Assembly (NCBI RefSeq): GCF_001857965.1
Contig: NZ_CP017774.1
Span: forward strand, 3,787,215-3,851,214
Direction: 5' to 3'
DNA: 64,000 nt
Source of the DNA: Flavobacterium commune
GTDB lineage: Bacteria; Bacteroidota; Bacteroidia; Flavobacteriales; Flavobacteriaceae
Below the pieces are notes generated by a model. The model was not told the origin of the DNA. It saw only the letters and a program-made list of their open reading frames with translations, and searched no databases. The position numbers were made by a program, and so were the translations under genes. Shown in pieces: positions 7,064 through 50,470 of the stretch (position 1 is its first letter; each line of letters starts with the position of its first letter).

Positions 7064-7133
7064 AAAAATAAAAATTATGAATAATATAGTTTGATTGGTT
7101 TTATCCTAAATTCTATTTAAATGCACCCCCCTC

Positions 7134-8046: not shown

Positions 8047-9975
8047 TTAATACTCCCATCTTACAAAAGCCTCCATAGCAGCGTAACTGGAAAGCCCTAA
8101 TTTATCATATAAGGCTGCTGTTTCACTATTTCGGTCTTCAGCTCTTTGCCAAAATTCTCTGGCATCCGATCCCTGGAAAACAACCCCGTCTTTTTGAGAT
8201 TGGTGTTTAAAAATACCATGTCTTTTAGCTAAAACCTGATCCGGACTCATTGGTACTGCCATTTCAATCTCATCAATTCCCCATTCCTGCCAGGCTCCTC
8301 TGTACAACCACAACCAACAATCTTTCATAAAATCCTTAGATTTTAAATTTTTCACAGCTTCAAAAATAGCATCCAAACAAACTTTATGGGTACCGTGTGG
8401 ATCGGCTAAATCACCAGCTGCATAAATCTGATGTGGTTTAATTTTCTCAATCAAATCCATCGTAATTTGGATATCATCCTGACCAATAGGATTCTTTTTA
8501 ATCGTACCTGTTTCATAAAACGGCAACTCCATAAAATGGATTTGGTCATCAGCTAAACCAACATAATGACTAGTTGCACGCGCTTCTCCTTTTCGAATTA
8601 AACCTTTGATATAACGAACTTCTGGAATGTCGATTTCACTGCTTTTTTTATTTTTAAGAAAAGTAATTGATTTTTTAAAAATAGTTTCAGCTTCAAGACT
8701 TTTTATACCAAATTTCTCATTATAATCGCAAACAAAATTGGCAAAACGTAATGCCTCATCATCGGCTACAGCAATATTTCCTGAAGTTTGATAAGCAACA
8801 TGTACTTCATGTCCTTGTTCTTGTAAACGCATAAAAGTACCTCCCATACTAATGATATCATCGTCAGGATGCGGACTAAAAATCAATACCTTTTTTCTTG
8901 AAGGTAAAGCTCTTTCAGGTCTGTTCTCGTCATTTGCATTAGGTTTCCCCCCTGGCCATCCAGTAATGGTATTTTGAAGTTTATTGAAAATTTTAATATT
9001 GATTTCGTAAGCAGGTCCTGAATCGGCTAATAAATCACTCATACCGTTTTCGATATAATCAGCATCAGTCAACATCAAAATAGGTTTCTTTAATTTTAAT
9101 GCTAAACCTAAAACTGCTTTTCGGATTAATTTATCAGTCCAGACAATTTTTTCAACTAACCAAGGAGTATTGATTCTTGTTAGTTTTGAAGAAGCTTCTT
9201 TGTCTAAAACAAAAACCGCATTATCATGTTCCTGTAAAAAGGAAGCCGGTACCTGATTTGTTACCTCTCCTTCTACAGAGGCTTTGATAATATTCGATTT
9301 TCCTTCGCCCCAAGCCATCAAAATAACCTGTTTAGCTTCCATTATTTTTTTTACTCCCAAAGTAATTGCTGTTCTTGGCGTATTACTCAACCCTGAAAAA
9401 TCTCCACTTGCCGCAACTCTGGTAATATGATCTAAGGCTACTAATCTGGTTTTTGAATTCTGTAAAGAACCTGATTCGTTAAAACCGATATGACCGTTAC
9501 CTCCAATTCCAAGAATCTGCAAATCAATTCCTCCCAAAGATTCAATTTTAGCTTCATAATTAGCACAATAATCGGCTATAGCTTCTTTTGATAAAGTTCC
9601 ATCTGGAATATTTACGTTTTCAGGCAGAATGTCAACATGGTTAAAAAATAATTCTTTCATGAATCGCACGTAACTGTTTATCGAATCCGGTTCCATTGGG
9701 TAATATTCATCCAGATTGAAGGAAACCACATTTTTAAAACTCAAACCTTCTTCTTTGTGCAAGCGTACTAATTCAGCATATAACCCCTTTGGTGAAGAAC
9801 CTGTTGCCAAACCTAAAATACATAATTCATTACTTACCTGTTTTGATTTGATCAATGAAGCTATTTGTTGAGCAACAGCCTTAGAAGCCTCCGTTGAATT
9901 TTCAAAAACTACTGTATCAATATTTTCAAATCTTTTTTCAAAACCTGTCGCTTTGTCTATATTACTTTTTAACAT
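8047..9975 (-). CDS. nagB: Glucosamine-6-phosphate deaminase fused to PIG-L/LmbE-type deacetylase domain
   Basis: A 642-residue two-domain protein. Residues 1-300 are a NagB/SIS-like deaminase (GlcN-6-P to Fru-6-P + NH3), with LGLATGSSPKGLY (phosphate loop, ~54-66), FNLDEYY (Asp89) and GIGGNGHIGFNE (His162). The Asp of the classical NDGH motif is Asn160 here, a variant also known in other NagB proteins. Residues ~360-640 form a PIG-L zinc deacetylase domain with SPHPDDD (368-373). The long form is common in Bacteroidota. The natural inference is that the second domain deacetylates GlcNAc-6-P (or a related amino sugar) to feed the first, replacing NagA. It is the last gene of the operon from 14410. 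Confidence 0.9.
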   Translation of the reverse strand: MLKSNIDKATGFEKRFENIDTVVFENSTEASKAVAQQIASLIKSKQVSNELCILGLATGSSPKGLYAELVRLHKEEGLSFKNVVSFNLDEYYPMEPDSINSYVRFMKELFFNHVDILPENVNIPDGTLSKEAIADYCANYEAKIESLGGIDLQILGIGGNGHIGFNESGSLQNSKTRLVALDHITRVAASGDFSGLSNTPRTAITLGVKKIMEAKQVILMAWGEGKSNIIKASVEGEVTNQVPASFLQEHDNAVFVLDKEASSKLTRINTPWLVEKIVWTDKLIRKAVLGLALKLKKPILMLTDADYIENGMSDLLADSGPAYEINIKIFNKLQNTITGWPGGKPNANDENRPERALPSRKKVLIFSPHPDDDIISMGGTFMRLQEQGHEVHVAYQTSGNIAVADDEALRFANFVCDYNEKFGIKSLEAETIFKKSITFLKNKKSSEIDIPEVRYIKGLIRKGEARATSHYVGLADDQIHFMELPFYETGTIKKNPIGQDDIQITMDLIEKIKPHQIYAAGDLADPHGTHKVCLDAIFEAVKNLKSKDFMKDCWLWLYRGAWQEWGIDEIEMAVPMSPDQVLAKRHGIFKHQSQKDGVVFQGSDAREFWQRAEDRNSETAALYDKLGLSSYAAMEAFVRWEY

Positions 9976-10014
9976 TGTTAGTTTATTTTTAAATTTTATA
10001 TTGTATTTATTCGC

Positions 10015-11397
10015 TTATTTTCTTGACCAGCTGGTGTATTTATGCCCTTTATGTGCAAAGAAGAAAATCATTAAATAAGCAGGTAAAAGCATTAAATATG
10101 CTATTTGATTTCCTGTTTTTGCTGTGGATAAAGCTGCTGTAGCTTGATTAGACATATTGATACTTTCGGCTAAAAGCCCATATAATAAAGGAAAAATTGC
10201 TCCACCTATGATAGACATAATTAGTATTGCTCCACCAATTTTTGTGTATCCTCCTAAATTCTGAAGAGCCAATGGCCAAATTGCCGGCCAACAAAGTGCA
10301 TTGACCAAACCGAATAGTGCTACTAAAATAATTACCAAAGGCAAAGCGGGAATAAAAGGTAATTGAATCATAATACTCGGAGACAGCAACACAATGGAAA
10401 TCACTAAAATCACTCCCAAAATACCTGAAATTTTTAATGCATTAACCTGAGATAAGTATTTAGGTATTAATGCGATTCCAACAATATAACCTATCAACAT
10501 TGCTGTCATGGTAAACGAGGTCAACTTAAGATAAAAATCCCCATTTTCACCATAAACTCCGAGCTGTTTTCCAAAAGTTCCTATTGTATCTCCCGCTATT
10601 ACCTCTGCTGCAACATACAACATCAGAGTTATTGCCCCCAAAACAAGTTGTGGATACTTGAATGCATTACTAATTTGTTTATAGATACTCAAATGAGCTA
10701 CATGGCCATCTTCATCTAAATCAATTTCAGGAAGAGGGGATAACTTCGCTAAGATTGCTAAAATTAAAATTACGATTCCCATATAAATATACGGTGTTTG
10801 CAATTGAAGTGCCAGCGTATCCAATGCTTCTGATCTAGACACAGTGCCAAGCATAGCTATTTTTTCTTTAGTATAATCCTTCATGTTAGACAATACCAAA
10901 GCAGTTAATACTAAAGGTGCTATAAATCCGGCTAATTTGTTGGCAATTCCTAAAACACTAATTCTTGCCGCTGCACTCTCCCTTGGACCAATTACAACGA
11001 CATAAGGATTTGCCGCAGTCTGTAAAATGGCTAATCCTGTTCCCATTATGAACAAAGCTACTAAGAACAAAAGAAAAGTTCTCATTTCAGCAGCTGGATA
11101 AAACATGAATGCCCCAATAGCAATTACTATTAAACCGAGTGAAATACCATTTTTATACCCAACTTTTTCTATAATCCAAGAAGACGGAATAGCCATTACA
11201 AAATAAGCAATATAAAAAGCAAAAGCTACAAAATAAGCCTCTGATGGTGATAATTCACAGGCTATTTCAAAAAATGGAATCAAAGGTCCATTTAACCAGG
11301 TAACAAACCCTAATATAAAAAATAACAGAGTTAAAATAGCCATCGGTATTAAAACTTTACTTTGACTTTTTTCTAATGTGTTTTTAATTTGTGTCAT
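10015..11397 (-). CDS. MFS sugar permease, FucP/GluP/NagP type
   Basis: A 460-residue major facilitator with 12 hydrophobic segments. Features of the fucose/glucose/N-acetylglucosamine permease family are the start ILTLLFFILGFVTWLNGPLIP, then AYFVMAIPSSWIIEKVGYKNG and ILQTAANPYVVVIGP. It should carry a neutral monosaccharide or N-acetylhexosamine with protons across the inner membrane. It sits 39 bp upstream of nagB and downstream of the kinase-transferase-epimerase trio, so GalNAc or GlcNAc is the best substrate guess. The substrate cannot be read from the protein alone. Confidence 0.88.
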   Translation of the reverse strand: MTQIKNTLEKSQSKVLIPMAILTLLFFILGFVTWLNGPLIPFFEIACELSPSEAYFVAFAFYIAYFVMAIPSSWIIEKVGYKNGISLGLIVIAIGAFMFYPAAEMRTFLLFLVALFIMGTGLAILQTAANPYVVVIGPRESAAARISVLGIANKLAGFIAPLVLTALVLSNMKDYTKEKIAMLGTVSRSEALDTLALQLQTPYIYMGIVILILAILAKLSPLPEIDLDEDGHVAHLSIYKQISNAFKYPQLVLGAITLMLYVAAEVIAGDTIGTFGKQLGVYGENGDFYLKLTSFTMTAMLIGYIVGIALIPKYLSQVNALKISGILGVILVISIVLLSPSIMIQLPFIPALPLVIILVALFGLVNALCWPAIWPLALQNLGGYTKIGGAILIMSIIGGAIFPLLYGLLAESINMSNQATAALSTAKTGNQIAYLMLLPAYLMIFFFAHKGHKYTSWSRK

Positions 11398-11469
11398 TTT
11401 GCTTATCGTTAAATTAATTTATCATGCTTTAAATAATAACCAATTCGTCTGGAATCCCAAACCCTTCTT

Positions 11470-12393
11470 TTATTTTAGCAATTCCTGATGATAAAAAGCA
11501 ATGGTTTCTTCTAAAGCTGTTTCAATAGAATGAGCTGGCTTAAAACCTAAATTATTGAATTTTGATGGATCTGCTTTCGAATGCTTAATATCACCTGAAC
11601 GTTCTTCTAAGAATTGTATTTGGGATTTAGAATTTGTTATTTTAATTATTTTTTCTGCCAATTCTAAGATAGAAGTACTATACCCCAAAGCTACATTATA
11701 GGTTTCATTACCAATTTGAGATGCCAAAATATTGGCTTTCACAACATCTTTCACATAAATAAAATCTCTAGTTTGTGAACCGTCTCCATAAATAGTTATC
11801 GGCTGGTTTTGAAGGGCTTTATTAATAAAAATAGGCACTGCTGCCGCATAAGCTGATTGAGGATTTTGCCTTGGTCCAAAGACATTAAAATATCGCAATG
11901 AAGCTGTCGGAACATTCCATTGATCCTGATACATCTTTAAATAGAATTCTCCATCTAATTTTGTAATTGCATAAGGAGTCATTGGCTCAGGAATCATAGT
12001 TTCTACTTTAGGCAAAACAGGATTATTTCCATAATTAGCAGCTGATGAAGAAAGCACCACTTTGCAGCCATTGTTTTTTCTTGCTGCCTCCAGGATATTA
12101 ATTGTTCCGATGGTGTTGATATCAATACATTCATCCAAACGCAATAATGATTCAGGAACACTAACTAAAGCTGCCAAATGAAAAATACTACTTGCTCCTT
12201 GAACTAACTCATCAACAAGCCCCTTGTCTCTAATATCTCCTTTAACAAACTGAACATTTAATCCGTCGAGATTTTTTTCGAATCCAGTTCTTAGACTATC
12301 TAACACAATAACTTGGTGTCCTTCTCCAGATAAATGTTCAGCAATATGACTTCCTATAAATCCCGATCCTCCTGTAATTACATATTTTTTCAT
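11470..12393 (-). CDS. NAD-dependent UDP-sugar 4-epimerase family protein
   Basis: An extended short-chain dehydrogenase, 307 residues from the chosen start. Motifs are GGSGFIGSHIAEHL (NAD binding at the N-terminus), LSSSAANYG (Ser), PYAITKLDGE (YxxxK catalytic pair) and SLRYFNVFGPRQNP with YGDGSQTRDFIYV, as in UDP-glucose/UDP-GlcNAc 4-epimerases. I take ATG at 12393 (MKKYVITGG) as the start; an alternative at 12441 adds 16 residues and overlaps the upstream gene. In this operon it could interconvert UDP-GalNAc and UDP-GlcNAc (inferred). Confidence 0.87.
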   Translation of the reverse strand: MKKYVITGGSGFIGSHIAEHLSGEGHQVIVLDSLRTGFEKNLDGLNVQFVKGDIRDKGLVDELVQGASSIFHLAALVSVPESLLRLDECIDINTIGTINILEAARKNNGCKVVLSSSAANYGNNPVLPKVETMIPEPMTPYAITKLDGEFYLKMYQDQWNVPTASLRYFNVFGPRQNPQSAYAAAVPIFINKALQNQPITIYGDGSQTRDFIYVKDVVKANILASQIGNETYNVALGYSTSILELAEKIIKITNSKSQIQFLEERSGDIKHSKADPSKFNNLGFKPAHSIETALEETIAFYHQELLK

Positions 12394-12431
12394 TTCTTTC
12401 TGTTTTTTTTTAAAATTGTTTATTAAGTTAT

Positions 12432-13310
12432 TTAATTCCAATCCAATACAGGAAAATGTTTTTTCAAATAAGCCTTTACTTCTACAATATCTTCTTTTGC
12501 AGTTAAATCAGGCACATGTTCTGAAAAAGGAATTCCTAAAGCAGTATTAGGGAAATCCTGTAATAAGTTTAAAAGCACTGTTGGTAATTCTTTTTCGTCC
12601 CTTTCAGGGTGAACCGGACAATTTTTAAGATAAGGATATAAAGTTTCACCTTTGAACTTAAAGGCATTCATACTTACCCTAATTTTTCCATCAGCATCCT
12701 TAAAGGATTCTACAACGTCAGCCTCTGGCTTTTCAATAATATCAAGAAGACAGCTGTTTTGATTCAATTTTGCAACTGCAAAACGGGAAATACGCTCAGC
12801 AGGAAATTCCATTGCATCACGATCATAGCTAATAAACGCATTAGGACTATTGGTTTCACGAAGTGCATACAATGCCTCAGCTGAATATAAATTATCACTA
12901 TTACAAACCGAATAAAATTGGGTATTTAATTCAGGATATTGCTCAACTGCCTGAAATAAAGCGTCGGCAGTTCCAAATGGTTTGACTCTTCCTTCTGGAA
13001 CGTATTGAACAGCAAAAGAAATATTCAATCCGTGAAAATCATTGTTCTTATCCTTATTACCATAAAACGATTTAAACAACTCTCCCTGTTCCCCTATAAT
13101 GATATAGATGTTTTTATATCCCGCTTTTTTTGCATTTACTAAAAGATAATCCATTAAAGGTCTTCCATTAGGACCAACTCCTATCAAACCTTTACTTCTT
13201 TCGTTTGCTTGTGCGATTTCCTCTTCTGTCAAATTTTCAACTATCGCTTCTTTTTTCATTCTTGAAGAAGCTCCCCCTGCTAAAATTATTAAATTAGTAT
13301 GCATATTCAT
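12432..13310 (-). CDS. Sugar-1-phosphate nucleotidyltransferase
   Basis: 292 residues. The N-terminus LIILAGGASSRMKK is the nucleotide-binding signature of sugar nucleotidyltransferases. Further on are KGLIGVGPNGRPLMDYLL, a GTADAL segment (~112-117) and CNSDNLYS, the position of the metal-binding Asp. IEKPEADV follows, as in uridylyltransferases. It lies 14 bp after the GHMP kinase and leads into the epimerase, so it probably couples a hexosamine 1-phosphate with UTP. The enzyme is reversible, so it could also release GlcNAc-1-P from UDP-GlcNAc. Substrate specificity is inferred from context. Confidence 0.85.
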   Translation of the reverse strand: MNMHTNLIILAGGASSRMKKEAIVENLTEEEIAQANERSKGLIGVGPNGRPLMDYLLVNAKKAGYKNIYIIIGEQGELFKSFYGNKDKNNDFHGLNISFAVQYVPEGRVKPFGTADALFQAVEQYPELNTQFYSVCNSDNLYSAEALYALRETNSPNAFISYDRDAMEFPAERISRFAVAKLNQNSCLLDIIEKPEADVVESFKDADGKIRVSMNAFKFKGETLYPYLKNCPVHPERDEKELPTVLLNLLQDFPNTALGIPFSEHVPDLTAKEDIVEVKAYLKKHFPVLDWN

Positions 13311-13324
13311 TTTTATTAAAAAAT

Positions 13325-14410
13325 TTACAATGTTTTTACTATTCTTGCTCCTGGATCTACATTTACAGCATAAGCAGCAACTGCTCCAGCAGCCAACATT
13401 GCTTCTACCACCTTAGATTCTTTTCCTGGTTCAGCTATCGCTACAATACTGCCTCCACCTCCTGAACCAACAATTTTAGCTCCATAAGCGCCTGCCTCTA
13501 GTGCAGCATTAATCATAGCATCAATTCTTGGAACTGTTATTTTTAGTAAATCTCTCAAAACAGCATGATGACAGTTCATTAATTCGCCAATCTTTTTTAA
13601 ATCAAGAGAAGGTTTTTGAAATTCAATTAAAGCCATTTTAGTATAATGGTGATTCTTGATTGCTGCTTCAAAATAAGGAATCAATCGGTCTGGCAAAAAG
13701 TTGCAGTACTGCTTTAAATCCTCAATTTCAGTCTTATTCAAATCGAAGTTTTCAAAATGACTTTTTACAATTTCTATTGCCAATAATGCATTTGCTTTTA
13801 ATTCCCCTATTAAACCAATGGTCTCTTTTGGAACTCCTGAAACCCCCGTTACCAGACCATCTAAGCCTTTTCCTATGACCGTAACCGAAAATGGATTTAC
13901 AGTATTTATATGTACCACATTGCCAACACCGATACTAAAATGATCCATCATACCTCCAGGCTCACCGTGCTCCACAACTTCAGACAAATAACCTATTTTA
14001 GAAATAAATTCCGGTGTTACTTCTTCATTAACACCAAAAGCTTCGACCAAAAAATTAATCCACGCCAACAATAAAGCTGATGAACTTGATGTCCCAGAAT
14101 TGATTGGAATATTACCAGTTATAGTAATATCATATCCTACATTAGGTACACAACCATACCTTCTTAAAACCCTTAACGAAGAAGCAAAATAATCACGAGG
14201 TTCTAACTCCGAAAAAACCTCATTGATATCTATCACTCTAAGCTGATTAATATCGACCATATCCAACTTGAATACACCTGTTTTATTTTGTACTGCAGAA
14301 AGCTTTATATTTCTACTTATTGCACAAGCAATAACAGGCAATCCAAGATAATCCTGATGATCTCCAAAAAGGCAAGTTCTCCCTGGCGCTAACGATACAA
14401 TATTTTTCAT
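13325..14410 (-). CDS. GHMP-family sugar 1-kinase (candidate GalNAc kinase)
   Basis: 361 residues. All three GHMP motifs are present: PGRTCLFGDHQDYLGLP (residues 9-25, galactokinase-type sugar/ATP entry), PINSGTSSSSALLLA (102-116, phosphate loop) and KIVGSGGGGSIVAI near the C-terminus. GGMMDHFS places the catalytic Asp at 156. It is closer in style to galactokinase-like anomeric kinases than to mevalonate kinases. It is the first gene of the operon and lies directly downstream of the paired operators. Given the chondroitin lyases nearby, GalNAc is the likely substrate; galactose or a uronic acid remain possible. Confidence 0.85.
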   Translation of the reverse strand: MKNIVSLAPGRTCLFGDHQDYLGLPVIACAISRNIKLSAVQNKTGVFKLDMVDINQLRVIDINEVFSELEPRDYFASSLRVLRRYGCVPNVGYDITITGNIPINSGTSSSSALLLAWINFLVEAFGVNEEVTPEFISKIGYLSEVVEHGEPGGMMDHFSIGVGNVVHINTVNPFSVTVIGKGLDGLVTGVSGVPKETIGLIGELKANALLAIEIVKSHFENFDLNKTEIEDLKQYCNFLPDRLIPYFEAAIKNHHYTKMALIEFQKPSLDLKKIGELMNCHHAVLRDLLKITVPRIDAMINAALEAGAYGAKIVGSGGGGSIVAIAEPGKESKVVEAMLAAGAVAAYAVNVDPGARIVKTL

Positions 14411-14541
14411 TTTAACAAATTAAATAACTAATAAACAATACATTAAACAACTTAAAACTCAAAACATCAACCCCATTTTTTAAGTTTTATAATGCGAAAC
14501 TATAGATTTAATTTAAGTAAAACAAGAAAAAACAATAAAAA

Positions 14542-14578
14542 TGTGCTCGAACACACCAAAACAATGTTCTCGAGCACA
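14542..14578. promoter_or_regulatory. Paired LacI-type operators between sugar operon and lacI
   Basis: Two palindromes, TGTGCTCGAACACA (14542-14555) and TGTTCTCGAGCACA (14565-14578), lie 23 bp apart centre to centre in the 398-bp divergent region 14411-14808. They match the sites at 16561, 35558, 47370 and 47390. A TCTTGTT block follows on the minus strand, as at the susC and lyase promoters. The rest of the region shows a candidate TATAGTTTC element for the minus-strand operon and nothing else I can name. Confidence 0.8.
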
Positions 14579-14808
14579 AAAAATACGTTTTTTACTACTA
14601 AATTTCTATAAAACAAAAAAAAAGTGTATAATTGGATGCTAAAACAAATTTTATTAAAAAAGTAGAACTCTTAAAAGCAAAAACCGATTTTGATATTAAA
14701 AATCCATTAATAAATTTACACTTAATATTAAAAATAACTTTACTATAAGAACTGCTAAAAAAAATAAATTGAAGCATAAAACAGATTAAACCTGATATAT
14801 TAGCATCT

Positions 14809-15849
14809 ATGAATAAAAAATATACTATAAAAGACATTGCACAATTAGCAGGAGTGTCTAAAGGCACAGTCGATAGAGTTTTACATAACCGAGGAAAAGT
14901 TTCTCCAAAGGCGCTTGATAGTATAAATGCTGTTTTAAACGAAATAGATTATGAACCTAATCTAATTGCCCGAAATCTAAAAAACAATAAAATATACACT
15001 ATAAGTGTAGTACTCCCTGATCCGGCATACGATTCATACTGGAAGCCTTGTATCAAAGGGATTCAAGATGCCATAAAGGAATTTAAAGCTTTTAACTTAT
15101 CGATTAAAGCACATTATTTTAATCCCGAAGACACAAATTCCTTTATAGATATAAATGAAAACGTATTGCAATTAAAACCAGATGCCGTACTATTAGCGCC
15201 TTTATTTTTCCATGAAGCCTTGACTGCAATTGAAAACTATAATAAACAGGGAACGCTAGTTAATGCATTCAACAACCAAGTACCATCTGAAGAAATCAGA
15301 AATTTTGTAGGACAAAATCTTTATCAAAGCGGTAGAGTCGCAGCTAAATTAATGGAAGTTATAACTCAAAATGGACAAATTGCAATTATTCATATTGATG
15401 AAAAATTCAAAAATGCTATACACATGCAGGAAAAAGAAAAAGGTTTTAGAAATTATTTTCTTGAAAATAAAAAATCAGATCAGGATATAACAACTTTAAA
15501 ATTAAAAAAATCAACTTACGAAATAAAATTTACTGCTTTTTTAAAAGAAAATCCAAATCTATCTGGTATTTTCATAACTACTTCTAAGGCTTATCAAGTT
15601 GCTAGAATTATTAATGAAACTAACAATAACAAGATCTCAATTATTGGTTATGACCTACTAGAAGACAACATCAATTATTTAAACAAAGGAACAATAGATT
15701 TTCTAATTAATCAAAATCCAAAACAACAAGTATACCTAGGAATCTGTTCATTGGTAGATCATTTTATATTTGGAAAAAACATCACTCCCGAAACACTCTT
15801 ACCTATAGACATAGTTAACTCTGAAAACGCCAGTTATTACATGGAATAA
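14809..15849 (+). CDS. LacI-family transcriptional regulator
   Basis: 346 residues. The N-terminal helix-turn-helix is textbook: YTIKDIAQLAGVSKGTVDRV, then LHNRGKVSPKA and a hinge around YEPNLIARNLK. A periplasmic-binding-protein-like sensor domain follows (about 60-340), with VVLPDPAYDSYWKPCIKGI and IIGYDLLEDN. It should bind CG-centred palindromes. TGTGCTCGAGCACA sites lie in its own upstream region and before three other transcription units in the window, making it the best candidate regulator of the chondroitin/GalNAc genes. The ligand is unknown; a GalNAc-derived sugar phosphate or free amino sugar is a reasonable guess. Confidence 0.92.
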   Translation: MNKKYTIKDIAQLAGVSKGTVDRVLHNRGKVSPKALDSINAVLNEIDYEPNLIARNLKNNKIYTISVVLPDPAYDSYWKPCIKGIQDAIKEFKAFNLSIKAHYFNPEDTNSFIDINENVLQLKPDAVLLAPLFFHEALTAIENYNKQGTLVNAFNNQVPSEEIRNFVGQNLYQSGRVAAKLMEVITQNGQIAIIHIDEKFKNAIHMQEKEKGFRNYFLENKKSDQDITTLKLKKSTYEIKFTAFLKENPNLSGIFITTSKAYQVARIINETNNNKISIIGYDLLEDNINYLNKGTIDFLINQNPKQQVYLGICSLVDHFIFGKNITPETLLPIDIVNSENASYYME

Positions 15850-15853
15850 AAAT

Positions 15854-16504
15854 TTAAAACATTAAATGCAATACTCCAAAAGAAGATGGAATATGAAAAT
15901 CAGGAGTCTCAGTATTAGGATTTACCCAGGAAATCCAAGTTGGCTCAAAATTAATTCCATCTTCAGAATTATATTTTGCTCTAAAAATTCCAGCTTCAAT
16001 CTTATTATCTTTAATCAAATTAAACTTATTAAAAGAATCGATACTAATAGCTCCTTCTACTGTAAAACTCTTATCATTTTTTGATGATTTTACTTTGATA
16101 TCATTTTTTGGCCAGTTCCAGTTAAAATCAAATTTTTTATCAGGATAAGCTATAAAATCCATTATTCTTGCAGCAGTATCGATTTCTAAACAGTAATAAG
16201 GATTTAACGAAGTATCAGGTCTAAAAAAAAGTTCAACTCTGTCAGAATCATTGATACTGACAAAACTGTCGTCTTTGGCTACGATATGGATTTTAGAATC
16301 AAAAACTCTAAAACAAAAAAAGAAATACACTCCATCCCATAAGGCTCTAAATTCTATTTTTGAAGGCTCCTTTATATCCCAAGGAGAAAGAAACTGAGTC
16401 AATACTTCTGCTTTATCCCAGACACCCCCCTCCCCTTTTCCTGTAATTTCCAACTCCAATTTCTCTATCAAATTAACCCTGTAAATATTGCTCTCTCTTT
16501 TCAT
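15854..16504 (-). CDS. CBM9-like carbohydrate-binding protein
   Basis: 216 residues from ATG 16504 (MKRESNIYRV). A longer frame from GTG at 16552 runs through the promoter -7 element and is rejected. The sequence resembles the carbohydrate-binding family 9-like fold: WDGVYFFFCFRVFD, DSDRVELFFRPD, YYCLEIDTAARIMD, then FTVEGAISIDSF and SFGVLHLMF at the end. There is no signal peptide, which is unusual for a glycan-binding domain and suggests a cytoplasmic or unknown export route. It is convergent with lacI and has its own operator-controlled promoter. Its role is unknown. Confidence 0.75.
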   Translation of the reverse strand: MKRESNIYRVNLIEKLELEITGKGEGGVWDKAEVLTQFLSPWDIKEPSKIEFRALWDGVYFFFCFRVFDSKIHIVAKDDSFVSINDSDRVELFFRPDTSLNPYYCLEIDTAARIMDFIAYPDKKFDFNWNWPKNDIKVKSSKNDKSFTVEGAISIDSFNKFNLIKDNKIEAGIFRAKYNSEDGINFEPTWISWVNPNTETPDFHIPSSFGVLHLMF

Positions 16505-16551
16505 ACTATTTTTTATTTTAATGCTAATAGAACTCTTATTTCTTTTAAACA

Positions 16552-16582
16552 CAAATATAGTGTGCTCGAGAACATTTTCAAT
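16552..16582 (-). promoter_or_regulatory. Promoter of CBM9-like gene with operator between -33 and -7
   Basis: On the minus strand, a TTG element (about 16579-16581) is followed after 19 bp by TATATTTG (16552-16559). This is the Bacteroidota -33/-7 arrangement. The palindrome TGTGCTCGAGAACA (16561-16574 on the plus strand) fills the spacer, so a bound repressor would block RNA polymerase directly. Confidence 0.75.
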
Positions 16583-16850
16583 ACATTTTCTTGGAATTTT
16601 ATTATCATATAGCTACTTTTGGCCTTCAAAAGAGTAAGAACACCAGAGCAACAAAAAACAACAAGCTGATTTTAAACAAAAATAAAGAAAATCATTCTCT
16701 TAAATCTTTTTGGTCTAATACTTTTATATTTCTCAAAAAGTAAAAAATCAATTCACCTCTTCAATCTACATTTTCTTTTGAAAAACTCCATCATCAAAAT
16801 AATTTTATGTATAAAATAAACACAAGTAATTTTAATAAAAATCAATAATT

Positions 16851-18224
16851 ATGACTTTAATAAAATCCATCTCAGGAATAAGAGGAACCATTGGAGGAAC
16901 TACAGGAAATGCTTTTACCCCAAATGATATTGTCACTTTTACAGCAGCTTTTGGTTTTTGGCTAAAATCTAAAGACACTACAAGAAAAAAAATAGTAATT
17001 GGTAGAGATGCCCGCCTTTCAGGAGAAATAGTTTCTAGGATTGTAAGTGGCACGCTACAATCAATGGGGTTAGACGTTGTTGATTTAGGATTATCTACAA
17101 CACCAACTGTAGAAATGGCAGTAGTTGCCGAAAAAGCTTTAGGAGGTATCATCCTGACAGCCAGTCATAATCCTAAGGAATGGAATGCCTTAAAATTACT
17201 AAATGAAAAAGGAGAATTTATTTCGGCCAAAGACATAACAACTATTTTAAAAAGTATTGAGTCTGAAAATTATGAATATGCTGATGTAGACCATTTAGGT
17301 AATTATACTATTAATACCGATTATTTTAACTTCCATATCGAAGCCATTAAAGCTTTGCCTTTAATTAATACGGAAGCTATTCAGAAAAGGAAATTCAAAG
17401 TAGTCATTGATGCGGTGAATTCTACCGGAGGAATTGCTGTTCCTTTATTATTGAATAGTTTGGGAGTAGATCAGATTGAACTATTGAATTGCGATCCCAC
17501 AGGCCAATTTGCACATAACCCGGAACCACTCACAGAAAACTTAACCGAATTAATCGCAAGAATGAAAGAGGGTAATTTTGATATTGGTATTGCAGTAGAT
17601 CCAGATGTCGACAGATTGGTTATTATTTGCGAAAATGGTGAGCCATTCAATGAGGAATATACGCTGGTAGCCGTATCGGATTATATATTATCGCACCAAA
17701 AAGGAAATACAGTTTCAAATTTATCCTCTACCCGTGCCCTAAAAGATATTACGGAAACAAGAGGAGGAAAATATTATTCAGCTGCTGTGGGAGAAGTAAA
17801 TGTGGTTGAAAAAATGAAAGAAGTCAATGCCATAATTGGCGGAGAAGGAAACGGCGGAGTAATCTATCCTGAATTGCATTATGGAAGAGATGCCTTGGTT
17901 GGAATTGGTTTTTTACTAAGTTATATGGCTGAATCTGGTCTATCATTATCTGTATTAAAAGAAAGATTCCCATTATATGCTATGTACAAACACAAAATAG
18001 ATCTTCCTGACAACTTATCAATGGATAGAATTTTGGAAAAAATAAAAGCAAAATTTTCCAATTATCCTATAATTACTATCGACGGAATCAAAATTGAAAT
18101 GGATAACAGTTGGGTTCACCTAAGAAAATCAAATACCGAGGCTATTTTACGTATCTATTCAGAAGCCAACACCTATGAAAAAGCTAAGGGAATTGCGTTA
18201 GAAATTAGCGATTTAGTTCTTTAA
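16851..18224 (+). CDS. glmM: Phosphoglucosamine mutase-like phosphohexomutase
   Basis: 457 residues of the alpha-D-phosphohexomutase superfamily. Visible are the phosphoserine loop ILTASHNPKEWNALK, the metal loop DPDVDRL, the sugar-binding loop GGEGNGGVIYPE and the phosphate-binding end RKSNTEAILRIYSEA. The usual Pro of SNTEP is Ala here. Members interconvert hexosamine 1- and 6-phosphates. It could be a housekeeping GlmM, or it could convert GlcNAc-1-P to GlcNAc-6-P for the NagB fusion. Location next to the GalNAc operon, inside the IS256 pair, favours the catabolic reading. A strong terminator follows. Confidence 0.85.
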   Translation: MTLIKSISGIRGTIGGTTGNAFTPNDIVTFTAAFGFWLKSKDTTRKKIVIGRDARLSGEIVSRIVSGTLQSMGLDVVDLGLSTTPTVEMAVVAEKALGGIILTASHNPKEWNALKLLNEKGEFISAKDITTILKSIESENYEYADVDHLGNYTINTDYFNFHIEAIKALPLINTEAIQKRKFKVVIDAVNSTGGIAVPLLLNSLGVDQIELLNCDPTGQFAHNPEPLTENLTELIARMKEGNFDIGIAVDPDVDRLVIICENGEPFNEEYTLVAVSDYILSHQKGNTVSNLSSTRALKDITETRGGKYYSAAVGEVNVVEKMKEVNAIIGGEGNGGVIYPELHYGRDALVGIGFLLSYMAESGLSLSVLKERFPLYAMYKHKIDLPDNLSMDRILEKIKAKFSNYPIITIDGIKIEMDNSWVHLRKSNTEAILRIYSEANTYEKAKGIALEISDLVL

Positions 18225-18298: not shown

Positions 18299-18366
18299 AA
18301 TTTAAAGAGATTTGACAAAAATAAATTGGTTACATATCGTTTTTTGTATTCTATTTACATAAAAAA

Positions 18367-19736: not shown

Positions 19737-19908
19737 ATAAAAAAACAGCTTACAAAAAATATTATTCAGATAGATTTTTTAGAATAAATTGTTTTATTGT
19801 TTATACATCTAATATCATTATCAAAATAAGAGCTTAATAATATTGTAAACTAATACAAATAATTATCGTGAAAACCAAAATAAATTCATTAACTTGGTTG
19901 TAAATATA

Positions 19909-21483
19909 TCATTCTTCTCTTGTAGCTGAAATTCGTTTCAACCTTACTTCTAACTCAGGAGATAACTTTCCTGTTTTATAATAATCCCCCAAAGTATTTA
20001 ACATCCATTTAGGAATCACTTGTTCAATACTAAGCGGTTTTTGCATAGTAGAATTACTTACAGCCTCATCAAAATTCAGCTCAATACCTTCAATATTATT
20101 ATAAAAGTTAGGCAATCCTGCAAGACTACTTTGAGCATTTTTGTTTTTCAAAAAATAAAAACCATTTTGTAAAACCATTTCAAATTGCTTTTCTTCAAGA
20201 CCTAACAATGGAGTAAGACCTGTTTGTTTACCCCAATAAATATTTTTATTCCACTGATTATTCCTATTCAAATCTTTATAATCATCTTTAAAAAAAGTGT
20301 AACCATACTTTTTATTGTCAAAAAAGGTGTTATCACTAAGCGTAATATGGTGAGGCACATTGTAGGGAAGGTTTTTCTCTTTTGAAAAATTCTTTCTAAG
20401 CTCTTCTAAAGGATTAAAATGGATGGTGTAACCATTGTTATTAACAAACATATTTTTAGCAATAATGCTTCCAAATGCAAGCGCATGTTCCGTTCCCTCA
20501 GCGCCAGTATTAAGATAAATAGCGGCATTACCCCTAGATTCAATTGTTTTTGACAAACTAAAATAATTCCCGGCTATAATGTGTTTGCTACCCCATATAT
20601 ACATGCCTCCATAGCCTTTATATTTTTCATCATCTGATAAAAAGAAATTATTAATCGCTACTTGTTTGTCACCATGACGAAAATTAAGAGTTCCTTGGCA
20701 ATTTAAAACTGTATTGGCATAATATACATTTTCCATTGACTTGCTGGTTACTATTTCTGATTCCGAATCCTGACGAATAAAAAGATTTGAATCAACTAAA
20801 CAACGACCAAGTGCATTTCGGTAATACCCTACACGGATAGCACCTCCGGCATTACCTTTCTTTTTGGGATTCGAGAAAAAGCAATGATCCACACGATGGT
20901 ACATTGGTGGTGCAATTACCTGGCTTGTTTTGTCTGGAGCTTTTTGATTGTTTAAGTTAATAACCTGATCGAAGGTAAGTTTATTCGTAAAACTACAATG
21001 GTCAATGCGACAATGTGTGGGGACATTTCCGTTTTCGTCCAATGATGTAGTAATGTATGCTGAATTAGCTTCATCGAAATTGTTAAATGCACAATTGGAA
21101 ACCCTGCAATAGCTGGCATACATAGCAATAAGTCCGGGTCCATGTGACTTCCATTGATTTGGATTACGGTTTCCATTGGTAAAATAAATGCCGTTAAGCT
21201 CTGTGTATGTACCATACATAGCCACTTTCACGTCTCCACAGAAAATTACACTACCTGGTGTTTCCGCAATTAAAACAATTGGTTTACTGCTGCTTCCATT
21301 TTGTTTAAGCAATAATTGAATATCCTTATATTCTCCCTTTTTAAATACCAGGCTGTCTCCGGGTCTCAAATTATTTAAGACTTTATATGTTTGAGCAACA
21401 TTATCAACATAGATTTTTTTGGCAAAAATGTTAGTGTTAATACCAATTAATACAACGAAAGATAAAAAACATTTAATGCGCAT
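19909..21483 (-). CDS. cslB: Chondroitinase B-type polysaccharide lyase, family PL6
   Basis: 524 residues from ATG 21483, chosen because MRIKCFLSFVVLIGINTNIFA is a signal peptide; an upstream ATG adds 31 unlikely residues. The right-handed beta-helix protein strongly resembles Pedobacter heparinus chondroitinase B. SEIVTSKSMENVYYANT and GTLNFRHGDKQVAINNF carry the catalytic Lys and Arg, 21 residues apart (K279 and R300 in the longer numbering), as in that enzyme. The calcium-binding Glu region is also present. It should cut dermatan sulfate at iduronate-GalNAc linkages by beta-elimination, in the periplasm or outside. It is the last gene of the susCD operon. Confidence 0.9.
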   Translation of the reverse strand: MRIKCFLSFVVLIGINTNIFAKKIYVDNVAQTYKVLNNLRPGDSLVFKKGEYKDIQLLLKQNGSSSKPIVLIAETPGSVIFCGDVKVAMYGTYTELNGIYFTNGNRNPNQWKSHGPGLIAMYASYCRVSNCAFNNFDEANSAYITTSLDENGNVPTHCRIDHCSFTNKLTFDQVINLNNQKAPDKTSQVIAPPMYHRVDHCFFSNPKKKGNAGGAIRVGYYRNALGRCLVDSNLFIRQDSESEIVTSKSMENVYYANTVLNCQGTLNFRHGDKQVAINNFFLSDDEKYKGYGGMYIWGSKHIIAGNYFSLSKTIESRGNAAIYLNTGAEGTEHALAFGSIIAKNMFVNNNGYTIHFNPLEELRKNFSKEKNLPYNVPHHITLSDNTFFDNKKYGYTFFKDDYKDLNRNNQWNKNIYWGKQTGLTPLLGLEEKQFEMVLQNGFYFLKNKNAQSSLAGLPNFYNNIEGIELNFDEAVSNSTMQKPLSIEQVIPKWMLNTLGDYYKTGKLSPELEVRLKRISATREE

Positions 21484-21594
21484 GGTTATTCTACTTTGGA
21501 TGTTATATGCCTTTAATTTGGAGTTGAAATATAAAAATGATTCTGGATTTAATGACCTAATATCCTTTTTGTTCATTTTTATGAAAATTATGAT

Positions 21595-22947
21595 TTACTC
21601 TTCCTGTTTATCTGTTTTTCTAATTGGATACCATTTGAACGGAGGTAACTGTTTTTTCCAACGCATGTATTCTTTGGTCATGGCATCAGAAATTATTATT
21701 TCAGTGCCAAGTAAATCTTTAGTTTCAGAAATATCATTTTTCAAATTATACAATTGAGGCTGCTGATTTGGAAGAAAAACCATTTTAAAATCTCCTTTAC
21801 GCATACATCCTCTATTGGTATTTACATACCAGAAAAGGGAACGATTATAATCCTTATCCGTAGGTGAATTAATCATTCTTATGAGATTCCTACCTTCAAG
21901 CCTAGCGTAAACACTATCTTTCAATTTGGCTCCTGCGGCAGTTAAAAAGGTAGGTAAAAAATCAAGTGTGGTAACTGGTATTTCGAATACAGTCCCCGGC
22001 TGTATTTTACCCTTCCAGCTCATAGCCATTGGCACTCGAATACCTCCTTCATACACATCACTTTTCATTCCACGCAATGGATAATTATCAGCAAAACTAT
22101 GTTCTACCTGTCCACCGTTATCATTCGTAAAAACAATAATAGTATTTTCTAATAAATTCAATTGTTCAAGTGCTCTATATATTTTACCCACGTTTTCATC
22201 CATATTGTAAGTGAGAGCGGCATTTAATGCGCGGTTACGATTGTTTAATTCTTTAGTAAACCTCTCCAACAATTCCGGTTTAGCTTGCATAGGTGTATGC
22301 GGTGCATTGAATGACACATAAAGATAAAAGGGTTTATCCTTATTCGCTTTAATGAACTCTACCGATTTATCTCCAATTGCATCTGTCGTATATGGAATGG
22401 TTGAAGCATCCAGTTGATTCCCGTTTTCTTCAATAAACCGTTTTTTGGTTACATCATAAGCACTGCTACCCCAGAGAAATCCCCAGAAATAATCAAAACC
22501 TCTTTTATTGGGATGAAAAGGAGCAGACAATCCCAAATGCCATTTACCAACAATACCTGTAGTATATCCCAAAGGTTTTAGATAATCACCAACTAATTTT
22601 TGTTTTGTTGGTAAACCAAGGCTATCAAGCGGAAGGTTATATTTTACCCCTTGAATAAAGTTTGTAGTGTGACCAAATTTTGCCTGATACACTCCTGTAA
22701 GCAAACCTGCCCTCGATGGACTACAAACAGCACCCGTAACATATCCATTAGTAAATTTTACACCTTCCTTCGCTACACGATCAATGTTTGGAGTAGGTAT
22801 TAATCGTGAAGATTGAAAACTAAAATCGGCATAACCAGCATCATCAGAAAGGATAAAGACAATATTAGGCTTTTGCTGCGCAAGGGAGCAATTAAAAATT
22901 AAGATACAACAGCTAATAAAAACTATATGAAATAATTTAGAACTCAT
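21595..22947 (-). CDS. S1-family sulfatase (exported)
   Basis: 450 residues with a signal peptide (FISCCILIFNCSLAQ). The alkaline-phosphatase-fold sulfatase signature is intact: metal-site PNIVFILSDDAGYAD, then the formylglycine site VCSPSRAGLLTG with Cys in a CxPSR context, GKWHLG, and FTNDNG for the remaining metal ligands. It should remove a sulfate ester from a chondroitin or dermatan oligosaccharide. The position (4-O, 6-O or 2-O) cannot be told by eye. It sits between the FGE and the PL6 lyase, on the same strand. The Cys needs conversion to formylglycine, which the FGE at 23073 can supply. Confidence 0.9.
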   Translation of the reverse strand: MSSKLFHIVFISCCILIFNCSLAQQKPNIVFILSDDAGYADFSFQSSRLIPTPNIDRVAKEGVKFTNGYVTGAVCSPSRAGLLTGVYQAKFGHTTNFIQGVKYNLPLDSLGLPTKQKLVGDYLKPLGYTTGIVGKWHLGLSAPFHPNKRGFDYFWGFLWGSSAYDVTKKRFIEENGNQLDASTIPYTTDAIGDKSVEFIKANKDKPFYLYVSFNAPHTPMQAKPELLERFTKELNNRNRALNAALTYNMDENVGKIYRALEQLNLLENTIIVFTNDNGGQVEHSFADNYPLRGMKSDVYEGGIRVPMAMSWKGKIQPGTVFEIPVTTLDFLPTFLTAAGAKLKDSVYARLEGRNLIRMINSPTDKDYNRSLFWYVNTNRGCMRKGDFKMVFLPNQQPQLYNLKNDISETKDLLGTEIIISDAMTKEYMRWKKQLPPFKWYPIRKTDKQEE

Positions 22948-23072: not shown

Positions 23073-24182
23073 TTACTTGACATCTGCCACACATCTAAAA
23101 CCAGTGTGTTGCAAACCAGTATCGGGTGATGACTTCATTCTTGCCGTAACGCGGTATCCTTTACAGTAAGAAGCATTACAAAGAAACGATCCTCCTCTAA
23201 CCACTTTTTTAGGAATAGTAGGCTCCATTGGGTCATGACTCTTTGAAGGTCCTTTGGGATTTTCTGAGACAGATTGTGTTAATTCTTTATAATACTCAGG
23301 CGTGTACCAATCACTACACCATTCCCAAACATTTCCTGCCATATCATACAAACCATAACCATTAGGCGAAAATGATTTTACAGGAGCTGCTACTGTAAAT
23401 TTATCAACAGCAGTATTCAAATAGGGAAATTTTCCCTGCCAAATATTTGCCTTGGGTTTCGCTTTTTCGGGCTCTTCATTTCCCCAAAAATATTTTTTAT
23501 CAATCAATCCTCCTCGAGCTGCAAACTCCCATTCAGCTTCGGTAGGTAATCTTTTGCCAGCCCATTTTGCATATGCATTTGCATCGTCCCATGAAATGTG
23601 TACTACAGGATAATTTTCTTTTCCATTAATAGTACTTTCAGGTCCGTGCGGATGTTTCCAGCTAGCCCCTTTAGTCCATGTCCACCATTGGGATGCATCA
23701 TTTAAATTAACTGCAGTAGTAGTAGGCGTAAAAACCAATGATGCCGCAACTAATAAACTTTCATCAGGTTTTGGAGTACCTGGAGGTAATTGTTTTTTTA
23801 TTTCTTCCCAATTGGGTTTTATTTCAGCAGTTGTGATATAGCCTGTTGCCTTTACAAATTTCTCAAATTGGGCATTAGTTACTTCGGTAGCATCCATCCA
23901 AAAACTTTTGACAATAACCTTATGTTGAGGATACTCATCGGATCTTCCTTCTTTATCCGAAGCCCCCATCAGAAATTCACCTCCGGAAATCTTCACCATC
24001 CCTTCGTAAGAAACTTTTTTTGATTTATTAACTGTATCTGAAGTTTTTCCAACAGAAAAACGAGCTGGTAAAGAAGCTTCACAACTCATTGTTTCATTAA
24101 TAGCTTTTTTATCATCCTGCTTATTTTTACAAGCAAAAAAGAAAAAAGATAATAATCCAAAAATGGCAACATTAGATTTCAT
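23073..24182 (-). CDS. Formylglycine-generating enzyme (SUMF1/FGE family), lipoprotein
   Basis: 369 residues. The N-terminus MKSNVAIFGLLSFFFFAC is a lipoprotein signal with the lipobox Cys. The FGE-sulfatase domain begins at MVKISGGEFLMGAS and contains NYPVVHISWDDANAYAKWAG, RLPTEAEWEFAARGG and GNVWEWCSDWY. RGGSFLCNASYCKGYR holds two cysteines (335 and 340) five residues apart, matching the copper-binding catalytic pair of true oxygen-dependent FGE. It should oxidise the CxPxR cysteine of sulfatases. A periplasmic, membrane-anchored location implies that the sulfatases in this operon are matured after export. It is flanked by a DUF4861 gene and a sulfatase on the same strand. Confidence 0.9.
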   Translation of the reverse strand: MKSNVAIFGLLSFFFFACKNKQDDKKAINETMSCEASLPARFSVGKTSDTVNKSKKVSYEGMVKISGGEFLMGASDKEGRSDEYPQHKVIVKSFWMDATEVTNAQFEKFVKATGYITTAEIKPNWEEIKKQLPPGTPKPDESLLVAASLVFTPTTTAVNLNDASQWWTWTKGASWKHPHGPESTINGKENYPVVHISWDDANAYAKWAGKRLPTEAEWEFAARGGLIDKKYFWGNEEPEKAKPKANIWQGKFPYLNTAVDKFTVAAPVKSFSPNGYGLYDMAGNVWEWCSDWYTPEYYKELTQSVSENPKGPSKSHDPMEPTIPKKVVRGGSFLCNASYCKGYRVTARMKSSPDTGLQHTGFRCVADVK

Positions 24183-27704: not shown

Positions 27705-27717
27705 AATTAGTTTTTTT

Positions 27718-32287: not shown

Positions 32288-32306
32288 CTGAAAAGAATTA
32301 ATGTTA

Positions 32307-35300: not shown

Positions 35301-35470
35301 CAGAAACTGTAACCCCAGGAAGAGGTTCATTTAGATTATCATTTACTGAACCTGATATTATTCTGTTTTGTGCATGTATAAATGCTGGAGCAATCATACA
35401 AAAAAACGCCCATTAAAAACTGCTTTAAAGCAATATTAAATATTGGGAATTTCAATTGGTAATTTTTCAT
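32307..35470 (-). pseudogene. susC: SusC-like TonB-dependent transporter, frame broken at three sites
   Basis: The full locus runs from ATG 35470 (MKNYQLKFPIF) and covers ~1050 residues in four frame segments. Breaks lie in the signal peptide at an A7 run (35400-35406), at ~34464 (one T missing) and at ~33890 (one A missing); each is a single base in or beside a homopolymer. Reassembled, it has the carboxypeptidase-like domain (GSVNDNLNEPLPGVTVSVKG), the SusC signature LEEVVVIGYGTVKKKDLTGA, the plug (VVDGFLIEDPDNN) and a TonB-dependent barrel ending PRARTIVFGTNISF. It should import chondroitin oligosaccharides with SusD. Its promoter carries the LacI-type operator. Confidence 0.88.
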
Positions 35471-35508: not shown

Positions 35509-35571
35509 ACAATATTATGCAAACGTTATTATATAAACAAGATAAAGCATGAAAAAATGTGCTCGAGCACA
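35509..35571 (-). promoter_or_regulatory. susC promoter block and perfect operator palindrome
   Basis: TGTGCTCGAGCACA (35558-35571) is a perfect 14-bp palindrome 88 bp upstream of the susC start. Toward the gene lies a block (35509-35542: ACAATATTATGCAAACG, then AACAAGA) that recurs almost unchanged at 47324-47357. The remainder of 35471-35873 holds AT-rich spacer and the terminator at 35792. Confidence 0.8.
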
Positions 35572-47323: not shown

Positions 47324-47403
47324 ACAATATTATGAAAACGCTTTTATAAGAACAAGAAAAAAAACAAAATGTTATCGAGCACATAATTATGTTTTCGAGC
47401 ACA
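47324..47403 (-). promoter_or_regulatory. Promoter block and paired operators of the lyase operon
   Basis: TGTTATCGAGCACA (47370-47383) and TGTTTTCGAGCACA (47390-47403) are half-conserved copies of the TGTGCTCGAGCACA operator, 20 bp apart. The block ACAATATTATGAAAACG with AACAAGA (47324-47357) matches that before susC. The rest of the 583-bp gap 47145-47728 is AT-rich with nothing recognisable. Confidence 0.75.
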
Positions 47404-50463: not shown

Positions 50464-50470
50464 GGAATCA

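Follow-up and report, generated by a model that had tools for sequence, protein, structure and literature searches.

A predicted LacI-controlled module for N-acetylgalactosamine catabolism in Flavobacterium commune and its relatives

How does a flavobacterium equipped to degrade chondroitin bring N-acetylgalactosamine (GalNAc) into glycolysis? Bacteroidota are major degraders of mucins and glycosaminoglycans, and the entry of GalNAc into their glycolysis is largely unmapped beyond one kinase of Bacteroides thetaiotaomicron. The question is raised by a stretch of 64,000 nucleotides from Flavobacterium commune (contig NZ_CP017774.1, positions 3,787,215 to 3,851,214; hereafter the window, in which position 1 is its first letter), where an operon for a sugar kinase, a nucleotidyltransferase, an epimerase, a permease and a NagB/PIG-L fusion lies near genes for chondroitin degradation. 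A preliminary description of the sequence had read these genes as a closed, Leloir-like route for GalNAc. Our comparative analysis indicates that they probably form a LacI-controlled catabolic module for GalNAc, which would be derived from chondroitin or dermatan sulfate in this genome and from mucin-type or other GalNAc-containing glycans in relatives. Because the prediction covers the full gene set together with its operator and interchangeable kinase modules, every step is open to experiment. It also suggests functions for the fusion of NagB with PIG-L and for a nucleotidyltransferase without any NCBIfam match over cut-off.

The operon and the proposed route

The operon occupies the minus strand at 8.0–14.4 kb, with the genes transcribed in the order GHMP kinase, sugar nucleotidyltransferase, SDR-type epimerase, MFS permease and NagB/PIG-L fusion. 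The lacI gene is divergent from the kinase operon, and beyond it lie a CBM9-like gene and a GlmM-type mutase. All named operon genes are open reading frames (ORFs) in the ORF list of the window and their family matches fit, confirming the gene order and the neighbouring phosphohexomutase given in the preliminary description.

13325..14410, minus strand: GHMP-family sugar kinase, proposed GalNAc 1-kinase (PF00288, PF08544, PF10509)
12432..13310, minus strand: sugar-1-phosphate nucleotidyltransferase, proposed UTP:GalNAc-1-P / GlcNAc-1-P uridylyltransferase (PF00483)
11470..12393, minus strand: proposed UDP-GalNAc/UDP-GlcNAc 4-epimerase (epimerase family match)
10015..11397, minus strand: NagP-like MFS permease (MFS_1; NF046060 448.6 bits, under the curated cut-off of 625)
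8047..9975, minus strand: NagB + PIG-L fusion, proposed GlcNAc-6-P deacetylase and GlcN-6-P deaminase (NF002557, TIGR00502)
14809..15849, plus strand: LacI-family regulator, proposed regulator of the GalNAc genes (PF00356, PF13407)
15854..16552, minus strand: CBM9-like protein (PF06452)
16851..18224, plus strand: GlmM-type phosphohexomutase, proposed to convert GlcNAc-1-P to GlcNAc-6-P (TIGR03990)

The epimerase ORF is listed from a TTG at 12441, and close homologues begin at the ATG at 12393. The CBM9-like ORF begins at a GTG, and translation more likely starts at an internal ATG near 16504.

In the proposed route, the permease would import GalNAc and the kinase would phosphorylate it with ATP to GalNAc-1-phosphate (GalNAc-1-P), from which the nucleotidyltransferase would form UDP-GalNAc and pyrophosphate (PPi) with uridine triphosphate (UTP). 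The 4-epimerase would convert UDP-GalNAc to UDP-N-acetylglucosamine (UDP-GlcNAc), and the same transferase, running in reverse with PPi, would release GlcNAc-1-P, so that UTP and PPi are regenerated. The mutase would then yield GlcNAc-6-P, the PIG-L domain would remove its acetate, and the fused NagB domain would produce fructose-6-phosphate.

Substrate identity, the roles of kinase and epimerase, the membership of the mutase, and the regulation are supported by comparative evidence. We infer the nucleotide used, reverse pyrophosphorolysis, the action of the mutase on an acetylated sugar, and deacetylation by PIG-L. As the transferase appears to be of the pyrophosphorylase type, UDP-GlcNAc would have to be split with the PPi of the first transferase step, and PIG-L would have to be the deacetylase in this genome because neither NagA nor AgaS was found there. 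Of the closed route in the preliminary description, the part from GalNAc through GalNAc-1-P and UDP-GalNAc to UDP-GlcNAc is thus well supported on comparative grounds, by the LacI operator and by a NahK-type replacement of the kinase; the return from UDP-GlcNAc is the inferred part. The label "Leloir-like" is loose, since the operon holds no GalT homologue, galK-galT-galE lie elsewhere, and the transferase is pyrophosphorylase-type. A more detailed scheme is put forward tentatively, in which one two-way transferase works at no net UTP cost, PIG-L/NagB replaces NagA, and three interchangeable kinase modules stand mostly under one LacI operator.

A conserved, predicted LacI operator and its targets

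To compare the locus among relatives, the best 80 of 336 stretches encoding a relative of the kinase were kept. These loci were 4–21 kb long (65 at full length), encoded kinases 73–89% identical to that of the window, and came from Flavobacterium or other Flavobacteriaceae in 79 cases and from [Flexibacter] sp. ATCC 35103 in one. Footprinting of the kinase–lacI intergenic regions of 77 loci, the window included, recovered a common palindrome, TGTGCTCGAACACA, on either strand in 70, and the operator TGTGYTCGARCACA was derived from this footprinting. Its degenerate form TGTKYTCGARMACA occurred exactly in 79 of the 80 loci, a count that is not independent as the motif was drawn from those same loci; the exception was the 4.2-kb locus L078.

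The window contained six operator matches at up to two mismatches, compared with 0.32 expected by shuffling (sites listed without strand):

14542..14555 and 14565..14578: two LacI operators in the kinase–lacI intergenic region, from the footprint
16561..16574: LacI operator between the CBM9 gene and GlmM, from the motif search
35558..35571: LacI operator lying 161 bp upstream of the first susC ORF in the chondroitin polysaccharide utilization locus, with a comparable site in F. hydrophilum (L175:10475)
47370..47383 (two mismatches to TGTGYTCGARCACA) and 47390..47403 (one mismatch): two operator-like sites before the PL8 lyase operon, with a comparable site at L175:2535

Setting aside an assembly duplicate and the two sites that defined the motif leaves four of the seven exact operators found genome-wide. 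Three of these fall in the window (binomial p = 1.8e-5), and the fourth, C1:1661664, was not tied to a pathway gene in a region seen only as an ORF list. The duplicate, C1:14721, had been considered as a second regulon site and was rejected as a copy of window position 35558 through contig overlap. At one mismatch, the genome had 23 places for the operator vs 12 for the reversed pattern.

Among relatives, a chondroitin-type locus of F. hydrophilum has the operator before its PL8 operon and again before susC. The operator also preceded a PL8-sulfatase pair and susC in genome G386, two PL8 genes in G411 (on a different contig from the kinase), and PL8 in locus L011. Further sites were located between GH101 and a DUF3472 gene (L012), upstream of both a SusCD-DUF3472-GH109-sulfatase operon and a GH2 gene (L173), and upstream of genes in the order SusCD-DUF3472-GH109 (L187). 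GH101, GH109 and chondroitinases have GalNAc in common, and GH109 and PL8 also hold other activities. Because the operator precedes PL8, GH101 and GH109 genes, whose shared sugar is GalNAc, we consider GalNAc the likely substrate. Apart from the negative cases given below, the palindrome recurs upstream of a number of operons that belong to the proposed pathway, and these make up a predicted regulon with LacI as the predicted binding protein.

Replacement of the kinase in related operons

Genome G433 has PL8 and no match to the GHMP kinase at E 1e-60. Beside its chondroitin locus stands an operon of CBM9, another transferase (25% identical), an APH-family kinase, the epimerase (83%), an MFS permease (44%), a GFO/IDH/MocA protein, the NagB/PIG-L fusion (86%) and GlmM (57%); its kinase matches structures of N-acetylhexosamine 1-kinases at 236 bits. 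Genome G307, with no PL8 match, has a like operon with the other type of transferase, a NahK-type (APH) kinase and a permease 75% identical to that of the window, without the GFO/IDH/MocA gene and under a LacI 59% identical with exact operators. In these two genomes the epimerase and the fusion are 83–84% and 86–88% identical to those of the window, and GlmM lies directly after or near the fusion. A third arrangement occurs in G386, which has three PL8 matches on the same contig. Its transferase (82%), epimerase, permease, fusion and LacI are retained, and next to its GlmM lies a divergent GHMP kinase that is 37% identical to that of the window and 48–53% to kinases of other classes.

NahK-type kinases are known to make both GalNAc-1-P and GlcNAc-1-P, according to the available text of PMC6264712. 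Three kinase modules thus appear to serve otherwise like operons, one of them from a family with this activity, and the NahK-type replacement is the strongest sequence evidence for the role of the window kinase. This replacement and the GalNAc shared among the operator targets make GalNAc 1-kinase the most likely activity of the window protein.

We also searched 296 genomes of the phylum for close relatives of the transferase (E below 1e-59), which were confined to six genomes of the genus and 15 from other classes; a further 42 gave weak matches only. In the other classes, the kinase adjoined the transferase in 10 of 14 loci, as did the epimerase in three of 14, the 15th contig being too short. 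The pairing of kinase and transferase, seen here and in all 80 kinase loci, is not due to chance. The pair stood beside GH123 (1506.7 bits) in L149 and beside GH20 and GH35 in L147; other scanned neighbours were GH38 (L145), GH2 (L148) and SSF symporters (L144, L145, L156), and some were unrelated housekeeping genes, such as DNA polymerase III (L144) and YebC (L148). Distant transferase relatives without the kinase were next to an SDR gene in L153–L155.

Families and motifs of the encoded enzymes

The window kinase matches the GHMP N and C domains and the galactose-binding signature over their cut-offs, which places it in the GHMP galactokinase superfamily. All 50 structure matches listed for its structural model (predicted local distance difference test, pLDDT, 84.0) were galactokinases, and its GRTCLFGDHQDY motif and Asp156 align with GalK. 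The GalK-like motif is kept, with the Glu of GEH replaced by Asp in the clade of the window kinase and not in G386 or the distant clade.

The transferase belongs to PF00483 and not to the GalT type (PF01087), and the GalT of the genome sits in another cluster. Its motif LAGGASSRMKK was invariant in 16 aligned sequences. Its model, of modest quality (pLDDT 68.5) and used for the fold only, matches UDP- and dTDP-sugar pyrophosphorylases.

The epimerase scored 189.3 bits against TviC and 176.3 against GalE in NCBIfam, both under cut-off, and among solved structures 188.5 against WbgU, 185.5 against 4zrm, a protein named UDP-glucose 4-epimerase, 179.0 against WbpP and 116.7 against Escherichia coli GalE, the first three being about equal. 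Its Ser272, invariant in 11 aligned sequences, aligns with an Ala of the genome's own GalE, itself aligned with Tyr299 of E. coli GalE. At this site, epimerase groups 2 and 3 carry Cys or Ser in the part of PMC6668579 available, and the serine agrees with the small C5-pocket residue of group 3 (WbpP type).

The phosphohexomutase matches TIGR03990 at 497.8 bits (cut-off 439) and is one of three phosphohexomutases in the genome. It shares 93% identity with the L008 copy and 72% with that of G386, both of which lie next to the pathway, vs 55% with the second GlmM of the genome. Given this distance, and mutases beside the pathway in L008, L015, L016, G386, G433 and G307, a chance housekeeping neighbour was judged unlikely. 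The mutases of G433 and G307 are nearer to the second GlmM (74–75%), and these were either recruited separately or are housekeeping enzymes.

The NagB/PIG-L fusion matches NF002557 over its full length (residues 8–641; 1062.5 bits, cut-off 384) and TIGR00502 at 249.5 bits, over the cut-off of 236.9. It carries LDEY, GNGHIGFNE, HPDDD and HGTH, which we take to be the catalytic motifs of NagB and PIG-L. The genome holds three copies of the fusion. The search for NagA (TIGR00221) in the genome gave a best score of 24.3 bits against a cut-off of 225.65, from a general amidohydrolase. AgaS (TIGR02815) was likewise not matched in the genome, while seven of 14 control genomes, E. coli included, matched. 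Another fusion copy (86% identical), at L192:9301-13761, is accompanied by an SSF symporter and a myo-inositol oxygenase-like (MIOX-like) protein, with SusCD further on; as its scanned neighbours were the symporter, the MIOX-like protein and an SDR, its reading as a GlcNAc-kinase locus was unsupported.

Conservation among relatives

In the 80 loci, the kinase was accompanied by the transferase in all, the MFS permease and lacI in 76 each, the fusion in 74 (77 at a looser setting), CBM9 in 69, PL8 in four and GlmM in three. The epimerase was present in all four PL8 loci, and all three GlmM loci had both PL8 and the epimerase. The epimerase also occurred in three loci without PL8 in view (L010, L012 and L022), the first two of which end at contig ends. 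Because of these counts, the core of the module is kinase-transferase-permease-fusion, which the epimerase, and the mutase where the flank is long enough, join in PL8 loci.

We searched 150 Flavobacterium genomes, in which the kinase was found in 27, PL8 in eight, NagA in 22, the fusion over cut-off in 59 and the epimerase in six. Four co-occurrence tests were made on this one set, with kinship uncorrected in all. The fusion was found in 26 of 27 kinase-positive vs 33 of 123 kinase-negative genomes (p = 8e-12), NagA in 16 of 27 vs six of 123, and PL8 in three of six epimerase-positive vs five of 144 epimerase-negative genomes (p = 0.002); the fourth test concerns kinase and PL8 and is given below. 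In the PL8 genomes G324, G360 and G444, the fetched stretches held neither kinase type and no exact operator, the PL8 stretch of G360 lying outside the fetched DNA.

Near the operon in the 80 loci were also genes for GH109-like (19), DUF3472 (23), arylsulfotransferase-like (39), GH101 (two) and GH123-related (one) proteins. DUF3472/DUF5077 and arylsulfotransferase-like genes lay near the operon or its SusCD (L173, L187, L012, L006, L035), and GalNAc glycans may be the substrates of their products. PL8 comes directly after the NagB/PIG-L fusion in F. palustre and F. hydrophilum.

Alternative explanations

A number of results weigh against a GalNAc module fed by chondroitin, and they are given here with the explanations that they favour. 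The link to PL8 is modest: the kinase occurred in four of eight PL8 genomes vs 23 of 142 without PL8 (Fisher p = 0.035, kinship uncorrected). There was no exact operator before PL8 in L008 and L015, in the PL8 stretch of G303 or in the fetched stretches of G433. Of the co-occurrences that the preliminary description had suggested looking for, the transferase was constant and PL8 modestly enriched, but the epimerase was present in only seven of the 80 kinase loci. An orthologue of it was found in only four of the 27 kinase-positive Flavobacterium genomes, so most would need another epimerase; GalE, which in the window genome has Ala at the Tyr299 site, is a candidate in relatives without the operon epimerase and may suffice. 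Also on this side, the score of the window epimerase on 4zrm falls between those on WbgU and WbpP.

It is conceivable, if unlikely, that GalNAc enters as UDP-GlcNAc and leaves by a way other than PIG-L, through the cell pool and then peptidoglycan turnover or another deacetylase. The PIG-L activity and reverse pyrophosphorolysis are both predictions, and the 16 kinase-positive genomes that carry NagA need no PIG-L deacetylase. However, NagA was absent over cut-off in the other 11, the window genome included, ten of which have the fusion, and the fusion sits in the operons.

We regard as improbable that the same first steps serve salvage, with GalNAc-1-P or UDP-sugars feeding cell-surface glycan synthesis and NagB/PIG-L belonging to a separate GlcNAc route. 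Kinase, transferase and epimerase alone would make UDP-HexNAc for biosynthesis. A transferase-epimerase pair without the kinase adjoins a DegT aminotransferase, as in biosynthesis, at L143:13684-17013, a possible case of biosynthetic reuse, and in L010 operators stand before another SDR gene and then an aminotransferase gene. Against salvage, the operator is common to lyases, SusCD and GalNAc-releasing hydrolases, the permease and NagB share the operon of the kinase, and in G433 and G307 GlmM follows NagB/PIG-L immediately or lies close to it.

The chance is also small, and somewhat smaller, that the pathway serves GlcNAc, or both amino sugars, with GalNAc being incidental. PL8 enzymes also cut hyaluronan, which contains GlcNAc, and the window PL8 matches both hyaluronate lyase and chondroitinase AC models weakly, so that its specificity is not fixed by sequence. 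The permease is NagP-like, the epimerase gene is missing from most relatives' loci, and NahK-type kinases take GlcNAc too (available text of PMC6264712). On the other side, the operator is found not only before PL8 but also next to GH101 and ahead of a GH109 operon, chondroitinase B is nearby in the window, the kinase has a galactokinase-like fold with a galactose-binding signature, and a GlcNAc route needs no 4-epimerase.

Finally, it is very improbable that the kinase is a plain galactokinase or has a uronic acid or another sugar as its substrate: GHMP kinases vary in substrate, and its best solved-structure and NCBIfam matches by sequence are mevalonate kinases, above galactokinase and human GalNAc kinase, but a separate galK-galT-galE cluster encodes a GalK only 23% identical to it (319.9 bits on TIGR00131 vs 101.8 for the window kinase, under the curated cut-off of 226.65), and the NahK-type replacement and the other targets of the operator point to GalNAc.

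Comparison with known pathways

The logic of the proposed GalNAc route is known from the galacto-N-biose/lacto-N-biose (GNB/LNB) pathway of Bifidobacterium (NahK, GalT, GalE), which, in the available part of PMC6668579, likewise has an anomeric N-acetylhexosamine kinase, a UDP-sugar stage and epimerisation of UDP-GalNAc to UDP-GlcNAc. It differs from the window in that NahK is of another kinase family, UMP is transferred by GalT and not by a pyrophosphorylase, the epimerase is of group 2, and the pathway starts from disaccharide phosphorolysis (PMC6668579, same part). The window kinase is a GHMP protein and not a NahK-type (APH) kinase, which is found in the G433 and G307 variants.

In B. thetaiotaomicron, growth on GalNAc depends on the APH-family kinase BT4240 (39% identical to the kinase of B. 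longum), as does roughly half of the growth on chondroitin sulfate, and the product of BT4240 is given as likely GalNAc-1-P in the available text of PMC11992087 (2025). Phosphorylation of GalNAc, likely at O1, would thus be shared by the two Bacteroidota, unlike the kinase family (APH vs GHMP). The terms UDP, epimerase and Leloir are absent from the main text of PMC11992087, and later steps are not assigned there. The view that no such Bacteroidota pathway had been described consequently holds in part: the first step has a precedent in BT4240, and the set itself was not recognised in the literature searched. Among the titles and abstract openings listed by our searches, which took in few subscription papers, there was no UDP-level GalNAc pathway in Flavobacterium and no report of NagB/PIG-L activity. 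As far as these searches show, the route logic and a Bacteroidota GalNAc kinase of the APH family are known already, and this GHMP-based gene set in Flavobacterium is new.

The Aga/tagatose-6-phosphate pathway (AgaK or a phosphotransferase system, AgaA, AgaS and an aldolase) also brings GalNAc to glycolysis, but by a 6-phosphate route, in the available portions of PMC12118421 and PMC5583593. Among 397 surveyed gut genomes, the AgaS-type route for GalNAc was confined to Actinobacteria, Firmicutes and Proteobacteria, as stated in the portion of PMC5583593 available. AgaS was not found in the window genome, which bears out the difference from the Aga-type route that had been described. The Leloir galactose pathway has GHMP kinase and 4-epimerase roles as here, whereas the window operon has no GalT and the genome has a separate galK-galT-galE cluster. 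AmgK/MurU anomeric recycling pairs an anomeric kinase with a nucleotidyltransferase, as here, but acts on MurNAc in peptidoglycan recycling and has no epimerase.

Chondroitin-degradation genes and assembly of the window

The lyases, sulfatases and GH88 reported near the operon were confirmed by profile matches. The neighbourhood contains two PL8 lyases, chondroitinase B, GH88, four sulfatases, a sulfatase-modifying protein and SusCD.

19909..21576, minus strand: chondroitinase B (PL6; PF14592, 396.5 bits)
21595..22947, minus strand: sulfatase (PF00884)
23073..24182, minus strand: sulfatase-modifying factor family protein (PF03781)
26226..27725, minus strand: sulfatase (PF00884)
29325..30539, minus strand: GH88 family protein (PF07470)
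30626..35397, minus strand: SusD and SusC, with susC split over several ORFs in the window copy
35902..37194, minus strand: sulfatase with its N-terminal part outside the ORF (PF00884 from profile position 78 on)
37438..38859, minus strand: sulfatase (PF00884)
38867..41956, minus strand: PL8 lyase (PF02278, PF09093, PF09092, PF02884)
42073..46605, minus strand: PL8 lyase with a secretion tail (PF02278, PF09093, PF18962)

The proposal that chondroitin supplies the GalNAc fits the PL8 lyases, chondroitinase B and operators of the window; it is not general, and chondroitin was rejected as a genus-wide source as 23 of the 27 kinase-positive genomes have no PL8 match.

Window positions 20826-43508 and 48921-62240 are repeated within the initial 36 kb of the contig (L136-L137), the copies showing gaps but zero mismatches, probably as an untrimmed circular overlap of a long-read assembly. 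Because the copies differ by gaps only, the frameshifts of the window copy (susC and others) are likely assembly errors; in the contig-start copy L136, susC is open as one ORF of 1054 amino acids. Positions 43509-48920 (5.4 kb), comprising the 5' part of one PL8 gene, the upstream operator pair and an esterase-like ORF, are missing from the contig-start copy, which represents either a real deletion variant or a misassembly. The gene at 50952-51467 has a KduI-like placement beside a KduD-like SDR, and in Pfam it matches only a cupin family (MannoseP_isomer).

Two insertion-sequence copies of ~1382 bp, at 5692-7073 and 18365-19745, share 99.6% identity and one orientation; in the first copy, where the ends were measured, these are imperfect inverted repeats of 29 nt (86%). 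The pair flanks the GalNAc module in a composite-transposon-like arrangement.

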